Origin: Acidobacteriota bacterium
GTDB taxonomy: Bacteria > Acidobacteriota > Vicinamibacteria > Vicinamibacterales > SCN-69-37
Direction of reading: 5' to 3'
Assembly (NCBI GenBank): GCA_024640135.1
Contig: JAHEFO010000013.1
Coordinates: 1-34,186 of the forward strand
Length of the DNA stretch: 34,186 nt
Shown here one piece after another: positions 12,316-31,635 of the stretch. Every line of letters starts with the position of its first letter. The stretch's first letter is position 1. The notes beneath the pieces are model-generated. The model saw only the letters and a program-made list of their open reading frames with translations, was not told the DNA's origin and did no database searches. Made by a program: the position numbers and the translations under genes.

Positions 12316-13395
12316 GTGAAGGTCACCTCGTGGGTCGTCGAACAACCCGGCAGTCCAATGGTCTGGCAGCAGCGTGAGGAGACGGTGGCTCCAGGCGAGG
12401 TGCTGATTGAAACTGCCGCCTGCGGCGTTTGCCACACCGATCTCGGCTTCTATTACGACGGTGTTCCCACCAAACATCCGTTTCCCCTGACGCTCGGGCA
12501 CGAAATCAGCGGGCGAGTGGTTGAAACCGGCGAAGGGGCCGAGAGTTGGATGGGGGCGGCGGTGGTAGTGCCCGCCGTCTTGCCCTGTGGCGAGTGTGCG
12601 GCGTGCCGCGCGGGCCGAGGTCAGATCTGTCCGAAGCAGATCTTTCCCGGCAACGACGTGCATGGGGGATTCGGGACCCACGTGCGGGTACCCGCGCGCG
12701 GTTTGTGCCGGGTGCCAGACCTCTCGAATCACGAACTCAATCCGTCTGGACTCGACCTGACGGCCTTGTCGGTGATCGCCGATGCGGTGTCGACGCCGTA
12801 TCAGGCCACGTTGCGCGCCGATGTCCAGTCCGGTGACGTGGCGGTGTGGGTCGGGGTCGGTGGCGTGGGCGGGTTTGGCGTCCAGATCTGTGCGGCGCTC
12901 GGCGCCAGCGTTATCGCCATCGATGTCAACGACGCGCGACTCACCGAGATGTCAAGTCACGGCGCTGCGCTCACCGTGAATTCGTCGGAGACTGAGCCCC
13001 GGGCGATTCGCAAGGCCGTCCGTGCATTCTGTGAGGCGCGCGGCGTTCCATCCTGGCGCCTCCGTATCTTCGAGGCGTCAGGCCATCCGGCAGGCCAGGC
13101 ACTGGCGTTCGGCCTGCTCGGCCACGGCGCCATTCTTTCCGTGGTCGGCTACACGGCCAAGCCGGCCGAAATCCGGCTCTCGAATCTGATGGCATTTGAT
13201 GCGGTCGCGATGGGCAACTGGGGCTGCCTCCCTGAACACTACCCGGCGGTCGTGGACCTGGCGCTCAGCGGCCGCATCGCTCTCGAACCCTTCATCAGAC
13301 GCCGCCCGATGTCCGAGATCAACGACGTCTTCGAACAGTTGCATCACGGCCAGGCGCACGGGCGCATCGTTCTCATTCCGGAGGCTCACGCATGA
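12316..13395 (+). CDS. had: 6-hydroxycyclohex-1-ene-1-carbonyl-CoA dehydrogenase
   Basis: 359 residues, a Zn-dependent medium-chain alcohol dehydrogenase. Start GTG 12316 has AGGAGG 4 bases upstream; the overlapping ATG at 12314 runs straight into a stop. Catalytic zinc ligands are C36 and the H62-E63 pair (GHEISG). The structural zinc site is C91/C94/C97/C105 (CGECAAC..GQIC). The Rossmann motif GVGGVG is at about 180-185, with D203 after the second strand favouring NAD+. The family assignment rests on resemblance to Had of Thauera/Azoarcus and on context with oah, dch and bcr genes. It oxidises the hydroxy-dienoyl-derived CoA ester made by Dch to 6-oxocyclohex-1-ene-1-carbonyl-CoA, reducing NAD+. 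It is the first gene of the operon, directly behind promoter and operator, and its TGA overlaps the oah ATG. Confidence 0.9.
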   Translation: MKVTSWVVEQPGSPMVWQQREETVAPGEVLIETAACGVCHTDLGFYYDGVPTKHPFPLTLGHEISGRVVETGEGAESWMGAAVVVPAVLPCGECAACRAGRGQICPKQIFPGNDVHGGFGTHVRVPARGLCRVPDLSNHELNPSGLDLTALSVIADAVSTPYQATLRADVQSGDVAVWVGVGGVGGFGVQICAALGASVIAIDVNDARLTEMSSHGAALTVNSSETEPRAIRKAVRAFCEARGVPSWRLRIFEASGHPAGQALAFGLLGHGAILSVVGYTAKPAEIRLSNLMAFDAVAMGNWGCLPEHYPAVVDLALSGRIALEPFIRRRPMSEINDVFEQLHHGQAHGRIVLIPEAHA

Positions 13396-14483
13396 CGTTC
13401 AAGGACCACAATCTCGTTCCTGCCTCGGAGACACCCGGTCTTCGCTACGAGGAAACCCCGCTGGCGACACCAGCCGGCGATCCCGTTCCCGGTCTCCATG
13501 TCGTCCGCATCACGCTGGACAATCCGTCTCAGCTCAATTCCTACACCACTGAAATGGTGAAGGGCGTGATTGTCGGCATGCGCCGCGCCTCCAATGACCG
13601 CGGCGCGGTCGCGGTGGTCTTCACGGGTGCGGGCACACGCGCGTTCTGCACGGGCGGCAACACGGCCGAGTACGCCGAGTACTACGCGGGTCGCCCCGGG
13701 GAATACCGCCAGTACATGCGGCTCTTCAACGACATGGTCAGCGCCATTCTCGCATGCGACAAACCGGTCATCTGCCGGGTCAACGGCATGCGGATCGCCG
13801 GGGGCCAGGAGATTGGCATGGCCTGCGACTTCACCGTGGCACAGGACCTTGCGGTCTTCGGTCAGGCGGGACCCCGTCATGGCTCCGCGCCTGACGGAGG
13901 GAGCACGGACTTCCTGCCGTTGTTTGTCGGCGCCGAGGCCGCCATGGAAAGCTGCACCCTCTGCGAGCACTGGAGCGCCTACAAAGCCATGCGCCTGGGC
14001 CTCGTCACCAAAGTGGTGCCCGCGCTGGTCGTCAATGGTGAGTTCGTCCTCAACCCGCTCGTGACGACCGACCGATGGATTGACGACGGGCAGATTGTGT
14101 ACGGCGACATGAAGACCGGAGCGGATCGCGAAGCCGGCAAGCAGGTACTGGCCAGCGGCACCGTCGATCTCTCACGCCTCGACCGCGAGGTCGATCACCT
14201 GATCTTCAAGCTGGCGAACACGATGCCCGGATGCCTCTCGAAGACGGTCGAGAGTGTCAGGAAACACAAGCTCGAACACTGGGATCGCAATCGCGAAAGC
14301 AATCGCGCGTGGCTGGCGCTGAACATGATGACGGAAGGGCGCGCCGGATTCCGCGCCTTCCATGAGGGCAGCAAGCAGTGCCGTGAGGCGGACTTCCTGC
14401 TGCTTCGCCGCAGGCTGGCAGAAGGCGAAACCTGGGGTGACGCGCTGACCGAGGAGATCCTGGCTCAGGCGCATGCCCGATGA
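13392..14483 (+). CDS. oah: 6-oxocyclohex-1-ene-1-carbonyl-CoA hydrolase
   Basis: 363 residues, crotonase superfamily, also called BamA. It adds water to 6-oxocyclohex-1-ene-1-carbonyl-CoA and hydrolytically opens the ring, giving 3-hydroxypimeloyl-CoA. Visible features are the CoA-pocket/oxyanion segment FCTGGN (85-90), IAGGQEIGMACD (135-146), and the GPRHGSAPDGGSTDFLP block (160-176) followed by the SCTLCEHWSAY segment, which together are characteristic of ring-cleaving hydrolases. The length is close to the usual 375 or so. The gene serves as the standard marker for anaerobic aromatic degradation. It overlaps had by 4 bp upstream and the GNAT gene by 4 bp downstream, so translation is probably coupled on both sides. 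Confidence 0.93.
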   Translation: MTFKDHNLVPASETPGLRYEETPLATPAGDPVPGLHVVRITLDNPSQLNSYTTEMVKGVIVGMRRASNDRGAVAVVFTGAGTRAFCTGGNTAEYAEYYAGRPGEYRQYMRLFNDMVSAILACDKPVICRVNGMRIAGGQEIGMACDFTVAQDLAVFGQAGPRHGSAPDGGSTDFLPLFVGAEAAMESCTLCEHWSAYKAMRLGLVTKVVPALVVNGEFVLNPLVTTDRWIDDGQIVYGDMKTGADREAGKQVLASGTVDLSRLDREVDHLIFKLANTMPGCLSKTVESVRKHKLEHWDRNRESNRAWLALNMMTEGRAGFRAFHEGSKQCREADFLLLRRRLAEGETWGDALTEEILAQAHAR

Positions 14484-14941
14484 AAGGCACCCACATCCGG
14501 CCCCTGAGACACCGCGATCTGGCCCAGGTCGTCCGCATCGACGCCATCCACACCGGCGAAGCGCAGCGATCGTACTGGATGCGGCTGTTCAGGGAATTCC
14601 TCGGTGCGTCACCGGAGCGAACGCGGGTGGCCCTGGCCGCCGAGGTCGACGGAACGCTGGCGGGGTTCGTGTTTGCCGACGAGCGGGCGTTCGAGTTCGG
14701 CTCCGAGCCGTGCGGCTGGATCCTCGAGATCGGGATCGAGCCCGCGCACACACGCGTCGGCCTGGCGTCTGCCCTGCTCGGAGAGGCGGTCCGCCGGCTG
14801 CGCGCGGACGGCGTGACGACGGTACGCACGATGGTCCGAAGAAACAATGTGCCGGTCCTGACCTTCTTCCGGACCAATGGGTTTGCCGGAGGGCCGTACG
14901 TGCAACTTGAACTCGTGGACGAGGAATACGCTGATGTCTGA
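14480..14941 (+). CDS. GNAT-family N-acetyltransferase, first copy
   Basis: 153 residues. GNAT fold: an N-terminal 'IRPLRHRDLAQVVRID' strand-helix, the central strand 'ILEIGIEP', the acetyl-CoA-binding motif A 'RVGLASALL' (R92-x-G94-x-A96), and the closing 'FFRTNGF'. It resembles the RimI-like class but is not confidently RimI. Its start overlaps oah by 4 bp and dch starts inside its last codons (8-bp overlap), so it is embedded in the catabolic operon. It is a divergent relative of the second GNAT at 21081-21557, with the same 'EFG...L....V' core and 'FF...GF' end. The substrate is unknown. Plausible targets are enzyme lysines in the pathway or an aromatic amine; both are inference. Confidence 0.85.
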   Translation: MKGTHIRPLRHRDLAQVVRIDAIHTGEAQRSYWMRLFREFLGASPERTRVALAAEVDGTLAGFVFADERAFEFGSEPCGWILEIGIEPAHTRVGLASALLGEAVRRLRADGVTTVRTMVRRNNVPVLTFFRTNGFAGGPYVQLELVDEEYADV

Positions 14942-15704
14942 ATTGGTCAAGGTTGTGCCGCTCGATGACGGCGCCTTCTGGCGCGTGACCTTTGGCGGTA
15001 CCAAGGGCAACATTCTCGACCGGGCCATGATGGCCGCTCTCGGCGGCGTGTTCCGTGACGCCGGGCGCGCCGCCCCTCTGAAGGCCATCTGCCTGGAAGG
15101 CGCAGGCCGCCACTTTTCGTTCGGCGCATCGGTGCAGGAGCATCTTCCGGGGCAGGTGGCCGTGATGCTGGCGGAGATTCGCCAGGTGGTGACGGACCTG
15201 CTCGACAGCGACGTGATCGTGCTGGCGGCCGTCCGCGGTCAGTGTCTGGGGGGCGGACTCGAACTGGCCAGTGTCTGCCATCGCATCTTCGCCAGCCCAG
15301 ACGCGGCGCTGGGCCAGCCCGAAATTGCTCTCGGTGTCTTCGCGCCCATTGCCTCTGTGGTGCTGCCCGCGCGCGTCGGGCGCGCTCACGCCGAAGATCT
15401 CTGCCTCACCGGCCGCACGGTGACGGCAACCGAGGCCCACGAGATGGGTCTGGTGGACGATCTGACGCCCGGCGATCCGGCTGATGCCGCCCTGGCCTGG
15501 GCCCGGACACACCTCTCCGCGCGTTCGGCCAGGAGCCTGCGCCTGGCGGTCAGAGCCGTGCGCACCAATCTGTCCACCCGCATCCGCACGGATCTCCCCG
15601 TGCTCGAAGATCTCTATCTCAACGACTTGATGACGACGAAGGATGCCGTGGAAGGGCTGCAGGCCTTTCTGGACAAGCGGCCGCCGGTCTGGAGAAACTC
15701 ATGA
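14934..15704 (+). CDS. dch: Cyclohexa-1,5-diene-1-carbonyl-CoA hydratase
   Basis: 256 residues, crotonase superfamily. Start ATG 14934 was chosen because it gives the expected N-terminus (MSELVKVVPLDDG) and family length; the frame is open upstream inside the GNAT gene. The oxyanion/CoA segments are FSFGASVQEH (61-70) and RGQCLGGGLELA (101-112), followed by 'ALGQPEIALGVFAP'. Dch hydrates the dienoyl-CoA product of benzoyl-CoA reductase to 6-hydroxycyclohex-1-ene-1-carbonyl-CoA, the substrate of Had. The C-terminal helix carries 'LPVLEDLYLNDLMTTKDAVEGLQAFLDKRPPVW', as in this branch of hydratases. The stop overlaps the bcrC start by 4 bp (ATGA). Assignment rests on family features plus a diagnostic operon context. 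Confidence 0.9.
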   Translation: MSELVKVVPLDDGAFWRVTFGGTKGNILDRAMMAALGGVFRDAGRAAPLKAICLEGAGRHFSFGASVQEHLPGQVAVMLAEIRQVVTDLLDSDVIVLAAVRGQCLGGGLELASVCHRIFASPDAALGQPEIALGVFAPIASVVLPARVGRAHAEDLCLTGRTVTATEAHEMGLVDDLTPGDPADAALAWARTHLSARSARSLRLAVRAVRTNLSTRIRTDLPVLEDLYLNDLMTTKDAVEGLQAFLDKRPPVWRNS

Positions 15705-16876
15705 CCCGTGCGCCTGACCTTCCGGCGCTGTTCGACCGGGCCGACGGACTGTACCGCGACTACAAACTCGGTGCGGTCCGTGCCTGGAAGGCGCGGACAG
15801 GCGGCCTGGCCATCGGCTACATGCCAATCTACATTCCGTGCGAGCTGCTGCATGCGCAGGGCGTCCTCCCCGTCGGCCTGATGGGCGCGCGCGACGACCT
15901 CGAGATCATCAAGGGGGACGCGTACTACCAGTCGTACATCTGCCACATTCCCCGCAGCACGATTGAGCTGGGGCTCAACGGCAACATCGATTGCCTGGAC
16001 GGCCTGATCTTCCCGGCCATTTGCGACGTCATCCGGAATCTCTCGGGGATCTGGCAGACGCTGTTTCCCGACAAGCTCGTGCGGTATCTGGACGTGCCGC
16101 AGAACTTCTCGCCGGACATCGGCGGCCGTTTCTATCGCCACGAACTCGAGACCCTCTGTGCCGAAATGGCCGGGCGTGGGGCACGCCCGTACGACCCCGA
16201 AGCATTGTCCGCGTCGATTGCCCTCTACAACCGGCTCCGGCGCCTGGTGCGCGACCTCTATGCGCTGCGGCAGGAGGCGCCATGGAAAGTGCCGACTTCC
16301 GAGCTCTACATCATGCTGCGTGCCACCCTCGTGCTGCCGGTGGAGGAAGCCATCGACCTGCTCGAGGAGTACCACGCCTGCGTCGAGGCCGCCGACGACC
16401 GTCAGCCGCTGGACCAGGCCCGGGTGCTGCTGACGGGGTCCTTCTGCGAACAGCCGCCGATTGGCCTGATTCGGACCCTCGAGCGTTCCGGGTGTTACAT
16501 CGTCGACGACGACTTCGTGCAGGTGCACCGATGGATCAAGTCCGATATTCCCGTTGAGGGTGATCCGCTGAACAACCTGGTCCAGGCCTTCCTGTCCGAC
16601 GCGATTGCCAGTTCGACCCGGTACATCGACCAGGGGGTCAAGGGCGCGGAGTTGCTCGACCGCGTGCGCATCAGCGGCGCCGAGGGCGTCTTGTTCTGCG
16701 CGCCCAGCTTCTGCGATCCGGCGCTGCTGGACCAACCCATGATGGTGCGGGCTGTCGAGACGACGAAGACGCCGTGGACGGCATTCAAGTACTCCGAGAA
16801 CACCGGCCAGTTCCAGGTCATTCGCGAGCAGGCAGGCACGTTCGCCGACTCAATCAAGCTGTGGAGCGAAGCATGA
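15701..16876 (+). CDS. bcrC: Benzoyl-CoA reductase subunit C (class I, ATP-dependent)
   Basis: 391 residues, of the 2-hydroxyacyl-CoA dehydratase D-component family (HgdA/B-like). With BcrB it forms the catalytic module that binds benzoyl-CoA and a low-potential [4Fe-4S] cluster and carries out the two-electron, Birch-like ring reduction. Candidate cluster cysteines are C47 (YIPCELLHAQG), C81 (QSYICHIPRS) and the later FCEQPP and CAPSFCDP cysteines. 'MPIYIPCELLHA.GVLPVGL' and 'NIDCLDGLIFPAICDVIRNLSG' are strong family blocks. The gene order C-B-A-D matches the Thauera-type bcrCBAD operon, and the size is close to Thauera BcrC. It overlaps dch and bcrB by 4 bp each. The enzyme should be oxygen-sensitive. 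Confidence 0.92.
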   Translation: MTRAPDLPALFDRADGLYRDYKLGAVRAWKARTGGLAIGYMPIYIPCELLHAQGVLPVGLMGARDDLEIIKGDAYYQSYICHIPRSTIELGLNGNIDCLDGLIFPAICDVIRNLSGIWQTLFPDKLVRYLDVPQNFSPDIGGRFYRHELETLCAEMAGRGARPYDPEALSASIALYNRLRRLVRDLYALRQEAPWKVPTSELYIMLRATLVLPVEEAIDLLEEYHACVEAADDRQPLDQARVLLTGSFCEQPPIGLIRTLERSGCYIVDDDFVQVHRWIKSDIPVEGDPLNNLVQAFLSDAIASSTRYIDQGVKGAELLDRVRISGAEGVLFCAPSFCDPALLDQPMMVRAVETTKTPWTAFKYSENTGQFQVIREQAGTFADSIKLWSEA

Positions 16877-18138
16877 GCAAGGACCAGAGCCAAGTCCGCC
16901 AGAAGGACATGATCGCGAGACATTTTGATCGTCTGGCGGCCGCGCCGGACACCGGGGACAAGACGGCCTACACGTTCGTGCCGGGCAACCTGACGGAACT
17001 GCTCTTGAGTTTCGATCTGCTCCCGGTGCTGCCCGAGATCAACTCTCTCCAGTCGGCCATGAGAGGGAAGACGGCCGAGTACATCGCGCTGGCCGAGAAG
17101 TTCGGTCACTCGGAGGATGTCTGCACCTACGTCAAGAGCGACATCGGCATGATGAAGTCCGGCAACATCGGGCCGACCGGCCAGCGGCTGCCCGATCCGG
17201 ACGTGCTGCTGTTGTCCTACACCGGCTGTTTTACCTTCCTCAAGTGGTTCGAGTTGCTCCGCGAGGAATACCACTGTCCCGTCGCGATGCTGCACGTGCC
17301 TTACCAACCGGATGGCCGGGTCACCCCGTCGATGCGCGACTACGTGGTCAAGCAGCTTCGGGATGAGGTGATTCCCACGCTGGAGCGTGTGTCCGGCCGT
17401 GCCTACGATGAGGATCGCCTGAAGGCGCATCTGGCGCTGGCCGCTCAGGCGGAAGATGACCTGGTGTGGGTCCTGCAGTCCGCGAAGCACCGGCCGTCGC
17501 CGATCGATGCGTACTTCGGCGCTGTGTACTACGTCGGCCCGATCTTCAGCGCCTTCCGAGGCACCCAGGCCGCGGTGGAGTACTACCGTGCGTTGCGGTC
17601 GGAAATCGACGAACGCATTCGGGAGGGCAAGGGGCCCGTGACCCCGGACGGGGAGATGGGGCAGGAGCGGTTCCGCGTGGTGGTCGAGGGCCCCCCGAAC
17701 TGGACCAGTTTCCGCCAATTCTGGAAGATGTTCTCCGACGAGGGTGCCGTCGCCGTCGCCTCCACGTACACCAAAGTCGGAGGCATGTACGACCTGGGTT
17801 TCCGTCACGATCCGTCGCGCCCCCTCGAGACCCTTGCGGAGTACTGTCTGGGTTGTTACACCAACCTCGGCCTGCCCACCCGCATCAATCTGCTGGCGCA
17901 GTACATCAAGGAGTACGAAGCGGACGGGTTCCTCATCAACTCGGTCAAGAGCTGCAATTCCTTCAGCGCCGGCCAGTTGCACATCATGCGCGAGGTCGAA
18001 CGAATCTCCGGACGGCCGGGCGGCTTCATCGAGAGTGATCTGGTCGATCCCCGCTATTTCTCGGCAGCCAATATCAAGAACCGGCTCGAATCGTACTTCC
18101 AGATGCTTGAGCAGAAGCGAATGGGAGGGGCGGCATGA
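16873..18138 (+). CDS. bcrB: Benzoyl-CoA reductase subunit B (class I, ATP-dependent)
   Basis: 421 residues from ATG 16873, which overlaps the bcrC stop by 4 bp. It belongs to the same dehydratase/reductase family as BcrC and is its partner in the catalytic heterodimer. Cysteines suited to the cluster are C84 (EDVCTYVKSDIG), C119 (YTGCFTF) and the later EYCLGC and KSCNSF cysteines. Other family blocks are 'VLPEINSLQSAMRGK' and 'CPVAMLHVPYQP'. An N-terminal helix (QVRQKDMIARHFDRL) precedes the core, as usual for BcrB. Its stop overlaps bcrA by 4 bp. Together with the two ATPase subunits downstream it makes a complete four-subunit class I reductase, so ring reduction here would cost ATP rather than use the Bam class II tungsten enzyme. 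Confidence 0.92.
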   Translation: MSKDQSQVRQKDMIARHFDRLAAAPDTGDKTAYTFVPGNLTELLLSFDLLPVLPEINSLQSAMRGKTAEYIALAEKFGHSEDVCTYVKSDIGMMKSGNIGPTGQRLPDPDVLLLSYTGCFTFLKWFELLREEYHCPVAMLHVPYQPDGRVTPSMRDYVVKQLRDEVIPTLERVSGRAYDEDRLKAHLALAAQAEDDLVWVLQSAKHRPSPIDAYFGAVYYVGPIFSAFRGTQAAVEYYRALRSEIDERIREGKGPVTPDGEMGQERFRVVVEGPPNWTSFRQFWKMFSDEGAVAVASTYTKVGGMYDLGFRHDPSRPLETLAEYCLGCYTNLGLPTRINLLAQYIKEYEADGFLINSVKSCNSFSAGQLHIMREVERISGRPGGFIESDLVDPRYFSAANIKNRLESYFQMLEQKRMGGAA

Positions 18139-19448
18139 AGTACACCATCGGAATCGATCTCGGCTCGACGACCACCAAGGCCGTGGTGCTCAACGAGGAC
18201 AGCGTCGTGATGGGGCGCGGGATTACGAACAGCCGCAGCAACTACGAAGTGGCCTGCCAGGTGGCGATGAGCGAGGCGCTCATCAACACCCGCTTTTCGC
18301 TGCTCCGGAACGAGCTCAAGTCTGAGGGGCTGTCGGAAGTCGAGCTGGACCGCTGGGTCAGCGAACTCGAGCGGCGGTTTCGCGCCGAACAGTACCGTTC
18401 GCAGTTGACCGTGCTGACGCGCGAACTCAATCGATTTGCGGGGCGCATGCTGATTGGCGGCGCGGCGCTGCGGGCGGCAGTCGGCCGCATCACGGGACTG
18501 ATGGCGGCCGAGGTCGAGGACCTGTACGCGGAAGGGACCCGGCGCAAGAGCGACTTCTTCCGGGACCTGGCCGGCGGCCGCTACATGAAACTGGCTGAAA
18601 CGGAAAGTCGCGGCCATGGCGTGGGGTACGACCAGGTGGTGGGACTGTTCGACAAGTCGATTCTCGATGTCGAGAACTCGGCCGAGGCTGCCGGAAGATT
18701 CAAAGATCATATGGCGGCTGCGGTGTGCGCCGCCGGGGCGGCCGACGGCGTGCTGGGCCAGGCCGTCTCGCGCGTCGCGTCACGGGAACTCGAGCAAATC
18801 GGCTCGGTCGGCACAGGTTACGGGCGACAGCGGCTGCCGTTTCCGGAGGGGCAAATCAAGTCCGAGATCCTCTGCCATGGTCTTGGCGCTCACGCCATGT
18901 TTCCGCTGACACGCACGGTGCTCGACATCGGAGGGCAGGACACCAAGGCCATTCAGGTCGACGACCAGGGCATCGTCACGTCCTTTCAGATGAACGACCG
19001 GTGTGCCGCCGGCTGCGGGCGTTATCTGGGATACATCGCGGACGAAATGAACCTGGGTCTGCATGAACTCGGCCCCGTGGCGTGCCAGTCGGATTCTCCC
19101 GTGCGGATCAACTCGACGTGCACCGTGTTTGCCGGTGCCGAACTCCGCGAACGACTGTCGCTGGGCGAGAAACAGGAGGACATTCTCGCCGGCCTCCATC
19201 GGGCAATTATTCTGCGCGCGATGTCGTTGATCGCCCGGTCGGGCGGCATCAGCAACCAGTTCACGTTCACGGGCGGCGTGGCGAAGAATCCGGCGGCCGT
19301 GCGGGCACTCCGGGATTTGTTGACGGAACACTACGGCGATCTGGATATCAATATTTCCGACGATTCGATCTACACGGGCGCCCTCGGCGCCGCGTTGTTC
19401 GCGCTCCGGGACCGACGCCGTTCTGCCGGCGCCCCGGCCATTCACTGA
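18135..19448 (+). CDS. bcrA: Benzoyl-CoA reductase ATPase/activator subunit A
   Basis: 437 residues, ASKHA-fold ATPase of the BcrA/BadF family. Phosphate-1 motif IGIDLGSTTTKAV (5-17); phosphate-2 motif D264-IGGQDTK. The cysteines that hold the [4Fe-4S] cluster shared between A and D are C290 (NDRCAAGC) and C329 (NSTCTVFAGAE). It has the long insertion (about 35-190, NSRSNYEVACQVAMSE... RKSDFFRDLAGG) that separates BcrA from the shorter BcrD and from HgdC activators. With BcrD it accepts electrons from ferredoxin and couples ATP hydrolysis to their transfer to BcrBC. It overlaps bcrB by 4 bp. No ferredoxin gene is in the operon. Confidence 0.93.
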   Translation: MKYTIGIDLGSTTTKAVVLNEDSVVMGRGITNSRSNYEVACQVAMSEALINTRFSLLRNELKSEGLSEVELDRWVSELERRFRAEQYRSQLTVLTRELNRFAGRMLIGGAALRAAVGRITGLMAAEVEDLYAEGTRRKSDFFRDLAGGRYMKLAETESRGHGVGYDQVVGLFDKSILDVENSAEAAGRFKDHMAAAVCAAGAADGVLGQAVSRVASRELEQIGSVGTGYGRQRLPFPEGQIKSEILCHGLGAHAMFPLTRTVLDIGGQDTKAIQVDDQGIVTSFQMNDRCAAGCGRYLGYIADEMNLGLHELGPVACQSDSPVRINSTCTVFAGAELRERLSLGEKQEDILAGLHRAIILRAMSLIARSGGISNQFTFTGGVAKNPAAVRALRDLLTEHYGDLDINISDDSIYTGALGAALFALRDRRRSAGAPAIH

Positions 19449-19456
19449 GGTCTCCC

Positions 19457-20320
19457 ATGCCCGATACACCTTCAGATTCGACGATGCTCACTGCCGGCGT
19501 GGATGTGGGATCGGCGGTCATCAAGATGGCCATCGTGGAAACAGACGAAGCCGGCGGCGAGCGTTTGGTCATCTGCCGCGGCGAGCGCATTCGACGCCGT
19601 GACACTCATGCCGTCGCGGAGAGCCTGTTTGCCGATCTCCTGAAGGAGAGTGGTGTCAGTCGCGACGCGCTCGGCTACGTGGCGACCACCGGCGAGGGCG
19701 AGACCATCCCGTTTCGCACCGGGCACTTCTACGGGATGACGACTCATGCGCGCGGCGGCCTGTTCCTGGAGCCGGAGGCCAGGGCCATCATCGACATGGG
19801 GGCGCTGCACACTCGTGCTGTCTCCATGGACGAACGCAGCAAGGTGATGGGATACCGGATGACCAGTCAGTGCGCGTCGGGTTCGGGTCAGTTCCTCGAG
19901 AACATCGCCCGATACCTTGGGGTCTCGCTCGAGGAGGTGGGCACCCTGTCCCTGCAAGCCGACAATCCCGAGGCCTGTTCGTCCATTTGCGCCGTCTTGG
20001 CCGAAACAGACGTGATCAACATGGTGTCTCGAGGCATCACCCTGCCGAATATCCTCAAAGGCATTCACACCTCCATGGCCGGCCGGGCGGTGCGTCTGCT
20101 AGTGTCGCTTGGCAAACCACCAGTGGTGATCGTGACCGGCGGACTGGCGAATGATGCCGGGCTGGTGGCGGCCCTTCGCGAGGCCGCCGCAGGGCAGAAG
20201 CTGGAGATCGATATCAGGCGGCATGAGCACTCCATGATTGCCGGTGCGATCGGTGCCGCGCTGTGGGGGGCATTCCGCGCGCGGAAGCTGCAGCGGCTGA
20301 AGGAGCGGGTGGCGTCGTGA
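19457..20320 (+). CDS. bcrD: Benzoyl-CoA reductase ATPase/activator subunit D
   Basis: About 287 residues from ATG 19457 (GAGG 6 bases upstream; 8 bp after the bcrA stop). It is a short ASKHA ATPase and pairs with BcrA. N-terminal 'TAGVDVGSAVIKMAI' is the phosphate-1 loop; 'AIIDMGALHTRAV' is the phosphate-2 region, with a substituted GG. Cluster cysteines lie in SQCASGSGQFLE and in EACSSICAVLAETD, matching the two-cysteine arrangement of activator proteins. 'FTGGLANDAG'-type adenosine-loop sequence appears as VIVTGGLANDAG near residue 230. The frame is open well upstream, but that part overlaps bcrA and has no family resemblance. The TGA overlaps the GTG of the next gene by 4 bp. Confidence 0.92.
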   Translation: MPDTPSDSTMLTAGVDVGSAVIKMAIVETDEAGGERLVICRGERIRRRDTHAVAESLFADLLKESGVSRDALGYVATTGEGETIPFRTGHFYGMTTHARGGLFLEPEARAIIDMGALHTRAVSMDERSKVMGYRMTSQCASGSGQFLENIARYLGVSLEEVGTLSLQADNPEACSSICAVLAETDVINMVSRGITLPNILKGIHTSMAGRAVRLLVSLGKPPVVIVTGGLANDAGLVAALREAAAGQKLEIDIRRHEHSMIAGAIGAALWGAFRARKLQRLKERVAS

Positions 20321-29194: not shown

Positions 29195-29851
29195 TCAGGA
29201 AGCCGCGGGCTCGAGTTCTACGGAGGCCACCGTGCCGGCCTCGACTCTGAAGACACGATCGAAGCGTGTCTCGATCCGCCGCTGATAGGCGAGCATTGTC
29301 ACCTGGCCCTGAGCCCGTCGCTGCGACAGCGTGAATTCCAGCGCGATCTGTTGCTCCCGGGATCCGGGCGCGATGATCTCGTCGATATACATGACCGCGG
29401 GCCGGAACACCGTGCCAAGCAGCAACAGCTGCAACCGCCACATCTCCGGATAGGTCAGATCCCGCGGGTTCGACTCCAGCGACGGGAGGCTGAAATGACG
29501 AAGCCTCTCGCCGGTTGGCGCCGGGTGTCCGGACTGTTTGGCCGCCAATGCGATTTCCTCGGCCAATGTGGCCCGAAAGAACTGCAGATAACTCACCTGA
29601 GATACATAGACCGTTCGCGTTGGCCGCTCTCGTGAAGCCACGCGGGCCAGTGGCTCATCTCCGATCGTGATGCGGCCGGTCGTCGCTGGCGCGAGTCCGC
29701 CGATCAGGCGGCCGAGTGTGCTCTTGCCGGACCCGTTGTCTCCCAGGACCAGCGCGGACTCGCCTGCCTCCATTGCGAGCGAGACATCGCGGAGCACGGG
29801 CGGCTGAAGTCCGTAGCTGAAACCTATGGCCTCCAGGCGAAGCCGACTCAT
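29195..29851 (-). CDS. ECF-type transporter ATPase with P-loop but degenerate signature
   Basis: 218 residues. ABC ATPase of an energy-coupling-factor module. Walker A GDNGSGKST (37-45) is intact, as are the Q-loop Q85 (VYVSQ), Walker B VMYIDE with D157, and the catalytic E158. However, the signature where LSGGQ should be reads DLTYPEMW (131-138), and the switch His is replaced by Tyr (LAYQ, Y189). It overlaps the other ATPase gene by 4 bp (ATGA) and is the last gene of the ECF operon. It likely forms a heterodimer with the protein encoded at 29848-30411 beneath the T component. Given the changes, it can only supply the nucleotide-binding half of a composite site. The transported substrate is unknown. 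Confidence 0.85.
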   Translation of the reverse strand: MSRLRLEAIGFSYGLQPPVLRDVSLAMEAGESALVLGDNGSGKSTLGRLIGGLAPATTGRITIGDEPLARVASRERPTRTVYVSQVSYLQFFRATLAEEIALAAKQSGHPAPTGERLRHFSLPSLESNPRDLTYPEMWRLQLLLLGTVFRPAVMYIDEIIAPGSREQQIALEFTLSQRRAQGQVTMLAYQRRIETRFDRVFRVEAGTVASVELEPAAS

Positions 29852-30411
29852 GGGGAAGGCACCTCGCTCACGATCGTGCCGTCATCGGCCAGGCGCCGCA
29901 GGGGCGGCCGCGGCCCGGCCGCGTCCGCCTGGAGTCCGAGCAGCAGTTGCGGATCGTATTCACAAAACACGGCGTCGCCGTGTTCCATGGCGCGAACGAG
30001 CAGCGTGCGGATCCGCGAGTCGCTCAGGTGACTGGTGGCGTCCAGCAGCAGTCGCCCGGGCAGACGCCGGTTGAGGAACAGCGCCAGACCCAGGTACTTG
30101 CGCCATCCTCCTGACAGGTCGAGGACGCGCCGGTCCAGGTGGAGGGCCAGATCCCAGGCCTCGACGAACGCGTCGAACTGACGCAACGGGGATTCCCCTT
30201 CCACGTGATTGGCCAGGACCAGGGCGATCTCCTCCCTGACGGTTTCACTGAACCCGCTGTGCTCGACGAACGGGTACGGGCGATACAGGCCGACCGCGGC
30301 GCCAAGCCAGGCCTCCACGCGTGCCTGCAGATTCACATGGCCGAAATCAATCGCGCTGGGATTCGAGGTCAGGACGTAAATCGCCACAACAGGATCAGTC
30401 CTCCCGCACAC
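29848..30411 (-). CDS. ECF-type transporter ATPase lacking the P-loop
   Basis: 187 residues from GTG 30411 (GTG 30387 is an alternative); a stop in the same frame at 30427-30429 rules out an N-terminal extension. It shows the C-terminal two thirds of an ABC ATPase: a Q-loop region 'VGLYRPYPFVEHSGFSETVREEIAL' (40-64, no Gln), a full signature LSGGW (99-103) and Walker B RLLLDAT (120-126), with D124 but Ala125 instead of the catalytic Glu, and Tyr152 instead of the switch His. By alignment of the Q-loop regions it starts about where the sister ATPase's P-loop sits, so Walker A is absent. It overlaps the T gene by 43 bp (19 bp with the alternative start), and its TGA overlaps the sister ATPase start by 4 bp. 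It would provide only the signature half of a composite site. Confidence 0.75.
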   Translation of the reverse strand: MCGRTDPVVAIYVLTSNPSAIDFGHVNLQARVEAWLGAAVGLYRPYPFVEHSGFSETVREEIALVLANHVEGESPLRQFDAFVEAWDLALHLDRRVLDLSGGWRKYLGLALFLNRRLPGRLLLDATSHLSDSRIRTLLVRAMEHGDAVFCEYDPQLLLGLQADAAGPRPPLRRLADDGTIVSEVPSP

Positions 30412-31055
30412 GCAAACAACATGACGTCAACGGCGCTCACCGGTGATCGCGCGGTGACCAGCCTGGGCGGAAATGGCAGACCCAGCATCTGGCAATATGC
30501 CGATCGGTTGGCGGCCTCGGTAATCAACGCGGCCAGGAGAGGGACGGTCCACAGGCCGACCGTCCGTATCCTGGCGACGCCGGAGGCCGAGTCGATTCCG
30601 CGCACGGCCAGGTGTGTGTCGATTTCTCCCAGGCGATTGAACACCGCGAGGCGAATGGAGCCGATCAACTGCAACACGGGACCCGCACCTGGAATCCGCA
30701 ACCGGGCGATGTCGCGGGCCAACTGGTAGGGATCGACCACTGACGTGAAGAAGATCATTGGCACGATCAGGTACAGCAGGACCCGCAGGGAAAACTGCGA
30801 CGTGTCGTTGAGGACGAATCTCAGGGCCTCGGGCCACGGTTCGGGCCGCGGCATGCCCATCACCAGTCCGTACATGCCGAAGATCACCATCAGGGTCACG
30901 AGGTGTGGCCAGACTCGAAACCAGGCGAACACGCCCGCGAACATCGCCACACACGACAGCCAGGCCGGGATGCCGACGGTCGACGCGTTGACGCTGAGGC
31001 CGAGGTACACCGCCAACAGCGCGATCGCGCGGATTCCGCTGATGCCTCCAGCCAC
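30369..31055 (-). CDS. ECF transporter T component (membrane coupling protein)
   Basis: 228 residues from GTG 31055 (TAGGA about 8 bases upstream). Several membrane segments are visible: AIALLAVYLGLSV, IPAWLSCVAMFAGVFAWF, VTLMVIFGMYGLVMG, VLLYLIVPMIFFTSVV, TVPLLAALITEA and a last one, VDVMLFACAGGLILLW. The cytosolic coupling region has 'LAVRGID' and, later, 'NRSAYCQMLGLPF'. These correspond to the two short coupling helices that carry ARG motifs in EcfT; here the first is recognisable and the second is degenerate. EcfT links the two ATPases to the S component. It follows the S gene by 19 bp and overlaps the truncated ATPase. Assignment is from topology, motifs and the S-T-A-A order. Confidence 0.75.
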   Translation of the reverse strand: MAGGISGIRAIALLAVYLGLSVNASTVGIPAWLSCVAMFAGVFAWFRVWPHLVTLMVIFGMYGLVMGMPRPEPWPEALRFVLNDTSQFSLRVLLYLIVPMIFFTSVVDPYQLARDIARLRIPGAGPVLQLIGSIRLAVFNRLGEIDTHLAVRGIDSASGVARIRTVGLWTVPLLAALITEAANRSAYCQMLGLPFPPRLVTARSPVSAVDVMLFACAGGLILLWRFTS

Positions 31056-31074: not shown

Positions 31075-31635
31075 TCAGTCGGCATGACCGCGGAGTCCGT
31101 GTTGAGTCAGGAACGACCTGGGTAGAGCCCGGATCACGGAGATGGACACCAGCGTCACGATGAGCTTGTCTACGGGCTCGCTGGTCAATTGCGAGAGCAT
31201 GACACTGTCCAGCAGGCTCTGTCCGGTGGCGCGGAAGAAGGCCGTGAGCAAGTCAGATCCGCTGGTCGTGACGCCGCCGAACACAAGAGCGACCACCGGC
31301 GCGGACGCCAGCGCGGCAGCGCAGGCGAGAATCAGGGCGCTGATCACGGTGAGTGCCGGTGATCGATACAGGTTCCGCCGCCGCAGTTGGTCCACGACCA
31401 GCCCAATGACGATGGCCGTGCCGGTAAAGAAGGGCAGATACGGGTTCACGACAAAGAATCCGATGAGGCAGGTCAGGACGCCGCAACTCACACCGGCGCG
31501 CCAGCCGAGCAGCAGGCTGGCGAGGACGATACCCGTGGAGTCGAGGTAGATGGGCAGCCTCAGCCAGGCGACCAGGCCGCCAATCGTCAAGTTCAGCGCG
31601 GTGAAAGCAATAACCAGCGACGTGCGGACGGACAC
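31075..31635 (-). CDS. ECF transporter S component-like membrane protein
   Basis: 186 residues from GTG 31635. About five or six hydrophobic segments: SLVIAFTALNLTIGGLVAWL, IVLASLLLGWRAGVSCGVL, LTCLIGFFVVNPYLPFF, TAIVIGLVV, VISALILACAAALASAPVV and LIVTLVSISVIRAL. The pattern 'LDSTGIVLASLLLGWRAG..CG' near residue 30 resembles the loop typical of vitamin-binding S components (thiamine/riboflavin/queuosine-type ECF S). It is the first gene of the S-T-A-A operon, which supports the role. The substrate cannot be told from the sequence, and no riboswitch or biosynthesis gene nearby gives a hint. A TATACT lies 7 bases before the GTG without a -35, so it is not called as a promoter. Confidence 0.7.
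   Translation of the reverse strand: MSVRTSLVIAFTALNLTIGGLVAWLRLPIYLDSTGIVLASLLLGWRAGVSCGVLTCLIGFFVVNPYLPFFTGTAIVIGLVVDQLRRRNLYRSPALTVISALILACAAALASAPVVALVFGGVTTSGSDLLTAFFRATGQSLLDSVMLSQLTSEPVDKLIVTLVSISVIRALPRSFLTQHGLRGHAD

Follow-up and report, generated by a model that had tools for sequence, protein, structure and literature searches.

Introduction

X-Arg-X motifs of EcfT anchor the two coupling helices that dock in the two ATPases of an ECF transporter (PMC10368641). Among ABC exporters, TAP, TM287/288, BmrCD and ABCG5/G8 have one consensus and one degenerate ATP site; in ABCG5/G8, the Walker A Lys of the degenerate site is replaced by Arg (PMC7756269). Human ABCB5-beta contains an extra N-terminal NBD that is N-terminally truncated and has neither an A-loop nor a Walker A motif (PMC11391348), the sole case of an NBD without Walker A that we found in the open-licence literature. 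Two questions are long-standing: whether an ABC transporter needs two ATP per cycle, and what role the degenerate site plays.

Here we analyze an operon in a 34,186-nucleotide stretch of DNA (the window) from an Acidobacteriota bacterium (GenBank assembly GCA_024640135.1, contig JAHEFO010000013.1). We consider it likely that the operon encodes a dedicated ECF importer in which two ATPases, A1 and A2, would form a heterodimer with a single composite ATP site.

The operon and its setting

The minus strand of the window between 31635 and 29195 holds a compact four-gene ECF transporter operon in the order S-T-A2-A1; all coordinates of the operon given below refer to this strand. An S component, an EcfT-type subunit and two ABC superfamily ATPase subunits are all present, as in an ECF-type ABC importer. 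The T and A2 genes overlap by 19 nt, and A2 and A1 by 4 nt, with the start of A1 lying over the stop of A2. An Rfam scan of the window returned no RNA features. On the plus strand, positions 12316–20320 contain a class I benzoyl-CoA pathway cluster (had, oah, dch, bcrC, bcrB, bcrA, bcrD), followed by an SDR gene that extends to 21048. The cluster matches NCBIfam equivalogs strongly throughout, with bcrA and dch slightly below cut-off, and would equip this acidobacterium to degrade aromatics anaerobically.

The S component (186 aa; 31075..31635) belongs, as a remote member, to the CD3073-like S family. It matches NCBIfam NF045596 with an E-value of 8.4e-25, at 87 bits against a curated cut-off of 180 and thus below the equivalog cut-off. 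We rejected assignment to the CD3073 family proper on this ground, and on the ground that the ATPases are unlike the two-LSGG module of Cetobacterium. Searching the phylum with S identified a related operon in another Acidobacteriota family (genome G361), whose S component is 36–37% identical; a tblastn search with the G361 S component then gave relatives in other lineages. In haloarchaea, Enterococcus and Lacticaseibacillus, nucleoside hydrolase genes adjoin the S component or the entire operon of this family (loci L046, L048, L052, L055, L056 and L061). Such a gene lies beside several of the relatives' operons but not beside that of the window; the neighbours in the relatives may point to a nucleoside or base as the substrate of the family.

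The coupling subunit T (EcfT, 228 aa; 30369..31055) is very divergent. It matches no Pfam family, CbiQ included (below threshold), and a PDB search with its sequence gave no match. Its assignment comes from end-to-end alignment with the EcfT of G361, which does match CbiQ (PF02361, 1.6e-9). The first X-Arg-X anchor, V-R-G (30597..30605), is kept, and its Arg is invariant in the alignment. In the second, QMLGL (30477..30491), the Arg is lost; the corresponding sequence is ARGF in relatives and LKGF in G361. Arg in both anchors is typical of EcfT, not strictly defining, and here it is found in the first anchor only. The loss of one anchor Arg suits an arrangement in which one of the two ATPases has been remodelled. 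We looked through the genome for another EcfT matching the CbiQ Pfam family, and there was none; pairing of the ATPases with another ECF module is therefore unsupported.

Of the six other genomes of the genus, two carry the operon, G006 (MAG Baikal-deep-G11) and G004 (MAG bin.564), which brings the form without a P-loop in A2 to three species. Identity within the genus is 87–91% for S, 77–88% for T, 68–76% for A2 and 60–69% for A1. The sequence-only reading of the window had proposed a search for homologues with the same gene overlap; both further species have the same 19-nt overlap and the same GTG start of A2. Their operons have DusA and MsrA-like genes nearby (both names read off translations). 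An M1 peptidase gene adjoins the operon in the window and in G006, and is also found in the four genus members that do not have the operon, which suits loss of the operon from an ancestral position in these four. A search with T for more members returned only the two known genus relatives from genome contigs, and none from viral contigs, plasmids or 396 genomes of the phylum. The S profile gave no further member of the P-loop-less form in the order, in the class or near G361.

Reciprocal losses in the two ATPases

A1 (218 aa; 29195..29851) is recognized by Pfam ABC_tran (E = 9.3e-13), and its profile matches the second ATPases of relatives with an E-value of 6.8e-32. It has a Walker A motif, GDNGSGKST (29717..29743), and a degenerate signature, LTYPE (29444..29458). 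Motif comparison places the Q-loop Gln85 (YVSQ) at 29597..29599 and the Walker B residues Asp157-Glu158 (YIDE) at 29378..29383. At the switch position, where the second ATPases of relatives have His, A1 has Tyr189 (LAYQR; 29285..29287): the His is lost in all three species of the genus and kept by relatives. The D-loop is also unusual (APGS).

A2 (179 aa; 29848..30387) shows the complementary pattern. It has no Walker A, and the Q-loop position reads Y-R-P in place of Gln (30277..30285). The ABC signature, LSGGW (30103..30117), retains LSGG intact and is invariant in the three species. Walker B ends in LLLDA (30037..30042), with the Asp kept and the catalytic Glu replaced. The switch region, C-E-Y-D (29953..29964), is invariant in the three species and contains Tyr, not His. 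These assignments can be set against the sequence-only reading, which had given A1 its Walker A, Q-loop, Walker B with catalytic Glu and LTYPE, and both ATPases a switch Tyr. The A1 motifs are borne out, each invariant in the three species, and so is the Tyr in both subunits. For A2, the LSGG and the absence of Walker A and of the Q-loop Gln hold; the change of the catalytic Glu to Ala applies to two species, the third (G004) having Thr.

The same reading had placed the start of A2 at 30411. That GTG is not conserved; the conserved start is the GTG at 30387, inside the end of ecfT. In G004, the open frame upstream of the A2 start is only about a dozen codons long, so no P-loop can be read there. 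A six-frame scan of the whole operon in the three genus members for G....GK[ST] matched only the P-loop of A1, which disposes of a frameshift hiding a P-loop.

A2 matches no Pfam family, and a PDB search with its sequence gave weak ABC matches only. Its profile, however, scores 63.4 against the first ATPases of related operons, compared with a maximum of 20.1 over 100 column shuffles, and fits these first ATPases (E = 3.3e-9) better than the second ATPases (E = 1.5e-6). By profile alignment against shuffled controls, A2 is a true ABC relative. In a tree of 42 ATPase domains, both window subunits lie on very long, badly placed branches, with A1 apart from the other second ATPases; their orthology therefore rests on operon position and profile scores. 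AlphaFold models from three-row alignments had a pLDDT of 45 for A2 and 34 for A1, a clear NBD that serves as a control for the shallow alignment. Because the obvious NBD scored equally low, we attribute the failure of the A2 model to alignment depth.

A2 is short and divergent and, as noted, without a Pfam match, as expected if it were a decaying pseudogene or if its P-loop were missing through an assembly or frameshift error. We give this next to no credence. The same truncation, start and 19-nt overlap occur in two independently assembled genomes that are 68–76% identical at A2, ruling out an assembly deletion, and the other frames contain no P-loop. In a three-species comparison with near-saturated synonymous change, dN/dS is 0.11–0.17 for A2, 0.13–0.17 for A1 and 0.03–0.15 for S and T. 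The value for A2, together with its orthologues, rules out a pseudogene, and by this comparison all four genes are under purifying selection.

An older asymmetry in a wider family

The S-T-A2-A1 layout is also found in G361, Paracoccus, Salmonella, Enterococcus, Streptomyces and haloarchaea. LSGG is kept in all 12 first ATPases of the family operons. The second ATPases keep Walker A and Walker B, and their signature departs from LSGGQ in 12 of 12: LHPLE, LDAGQ, LHAAQ, LPYSK, FGEPW, LSEAW, LSLGD, MGQPR and LTYPE were seen, the departure being mild in some (for example LDAGQ in Paracoccus). Four further modules, in Lactiplantibacillus, Klebsiella, Halorussus and Rubrobacter, show the same tendency. 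By comparison, two LSGG or ISGG signatures are present in the housekeeping modules of Clostridioides, Enterococcus, Monoglobus and Mycoplasmopsis and in the CD3073 module of Cetobacterium.

The state of the A2 subunit's own site is graded. It is intact in Enterococcus and Streptomyces; the switch His is lost in Paracoccus and Salmonella; Natrinema has Q to E and H to Q; other haloarchaea add to these changes D-E to Q-Q or R-Q, and GKAT. At the extreme, Q, E and H are lost in G361, and the P-loop itself in the window genus. In G361, A2 retains Walker A (GPSKAGKTT) and its signature is LSGGE, but Gln stands at the catalytic Glu and neither Q-loop Gln nor switch His is present; its A1 partner has all motifs except the signature (LHPLE).

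A degenerate A1 signature facing an LSGG-keeping A2 across the relatives indicates that the two-sided loss is an old family trait. On the sequences compared, loss of the P-loop is a late addition to this older, family-wide asymmetry. The asymmetry is not specific to this genome: it belongs to a wider ECF family, seen in at least seven lineages, whereas complete loss of the P-loop is confined to the genus. We found no account, in open-licence papers, of an asymmetry running through a family of ECF ATPases. The P-loop loss had been linked to the overlap of A2 with ecfT. The 19-nt overlap is real and conserved in all three species of the genus, but it is ruled out as the cause: relatives with an intact Walker A overlap as well, by 13 nt in Salmonella and by 4 nt each in G361, Paracoccus and Enterococcus.

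Three of these loci are of separate note. In Salmonella Senftenberg NCTC10384 (L047:3544-6596), an uncharacterised ECF operon of the asymmetric family lies between epd and tkt in a member of the Enterobacteriaceae; a gene for a PPC-domain protein comes first, the A2 site has no switch His and the A1 signature is LHAAQ. Fused ECF ATPases with the reciprocal pattern occur in Halorussus limi (L067:2038-3858) and Rubrobacter radiotolerans (L070:2098-3858), in modules whose gene order differs from S-T-A2-A1. The first half of the fusions has LSGGQ, DT or DS for DE and no His; the second half has LPRGV or MPGGQ.

How the losses could have followed one another is suggested by this gradation. The A1 signature probably degenerated first, in an ancestor of the wider S-T-A2-A1 family. 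The A2 site would thereby have been relieved of selection, so that its H-loop, Q-loop, Walker B and Walker A could decay to a degree that varies by lineage. In the window genus Walker A was lost entirely, and A2 would now contribute the signature and act as a coupling scaffold.

A proposed single composite ATP site

In the proposed heterodimer, A1 would give Walker A, the Q-loop and Walker B, and A2 the LSGG signature that closes on the ATP bound there. The opposite site would be gone on both faces: A2 is without P-loop and catalytic Glu, and A1 without signature. A homodimer of either subunit would be left without a complete site, which should make the heterodimer obligatory. The pair corresponds to a heterodimer of one consensus and one degenerate site, with one site complete and the other altered; the switch Tyr is the exception. 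It does not correspond to a degenerate site that has a Walker A, as no G....GK[ST] is present in A2 of any of the three species. The earlier proposal that exactly one complete composite site remains thus stands as far as the reciprocity is concerned, which is invariant in the three species with both subunits under selection; binding of ATP at that site is what the motifs would predict, and the loss of the switch His in A1 makes its hydrolysis there uncertain.

Could A2 hold a second ATP? Residues 1–27 have no confident alignment, so deletion of the P-loop and its mutation past recognition look alike. A weak, non-catalytic ATP might be held through non-Walker contacts by what is left of the P-loop strand and helix (AIYVLTSNPSAIDF...). 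In favour of this, residues 1–11 of A2 fall on the G361 P-loop strand in a global profile alignment, I-D-F is unchanged across the three species, and other degenerate-site ABC proteins offer a precedent. We nevertheless regard a second ATP as unlikely: confidence in that part of the alignment is near zero, the local alignment begins only at residue 28, all phosphate-binding residues of Walker A are absent and A1 offers that site no signature.

Given the switch Tyr and unusual D-loop of A1, the last remaining site may hydrolyse ATP poorly. Carried further, neither site would be an ATPase, the one ATP would be a structural or regulatory ligand and uptake through S would be slow or uncoupled; the loss of a switch His that relatives keep, the degraded D-loop and the anchor Arg missing from EcfT are consistent with such a module. 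This strikes us as improbable, because erosion of the catalytic motifs would be expected if hydrolysis were not needed, whereas in all three species Walker A, the Q-loop Gln and Asp-Glu of A1 and the LSGG of A2 are unchanged in genes under purifying selection.

For the single composite site, the likely cycle would begin with one ATP bound at A1; closure on A2 would move the coupling helices, and hydrolysis at Glu158 of A1 would reset the transporter. That A1 and A2 pair, bind a single ATP, close as a dimer and drive transport, and that the losses came in the order given, we infer from the sequences. With somewhat better than even confidence, we suggest that this is a natural ABC importer running on one ATP per cycle, its P-loop-less NBD purely a signature donor at the end of an evolutionary series. 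That series, read from living relatives, leads from two sites through a degenerate signature and a decayed second site to a lost P-loop. If this is true, an ECF importer can do with one site, a second being impossible here. With living relatives as intermediate stages, the order and consequences of the losses become testable.

Comparison with known systems

The closest systems are the CD3073-like S-T-A2-A1 operons, exemplified by G361, Salmonella Senftenberg (L047), Paracoccus yeei (L045), Enterococcus raffinosus (L048) and Haladaptatus (L046). They share with the window operon the gene order, the overlapping genes, the S family, the LSGG of A2 and the degenerate signature of A1. They differ on three points: their A2 retains a Walker A, their A1 the switch His and their EcfT both anchors (with one Arg replaced by Lys in G361). 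The Group II (housekeeping) EcfA-EcfA'-EcfT transporters, such as ECF-FolT2 (PMC10368641), are likewise four-part, with an ATPase heterodimer docked on EcfT helices. Unlike the window operon, they have two consensus ATP sites, Walker A in both ATPases and two X-Arg-X anchors, and the window EcfT, unlike theirs, falls below the CbiQ Pfam threshold.

As in TAP, TM287/288, BmrCD and ABCG5/G8, the changes in the window pair are split over both NBDs; those proteins, however, export, and their degenerate site usually has its own Walker A. The loss of the whole P-loop had been considered more extreme than in any known asymmetric ABC ATPase. One precedent exists in ABCB5-beta, whose additional NBD resembles A2 in being N-terminally truncated and lacking the A-loop and Walker A. 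ABCB5-beta is a half-transporter isoform with a full NBD in addition; it is not an importer, and its truncated NBD, in contrast to A2, is not one half of a dedicated heterodimer.
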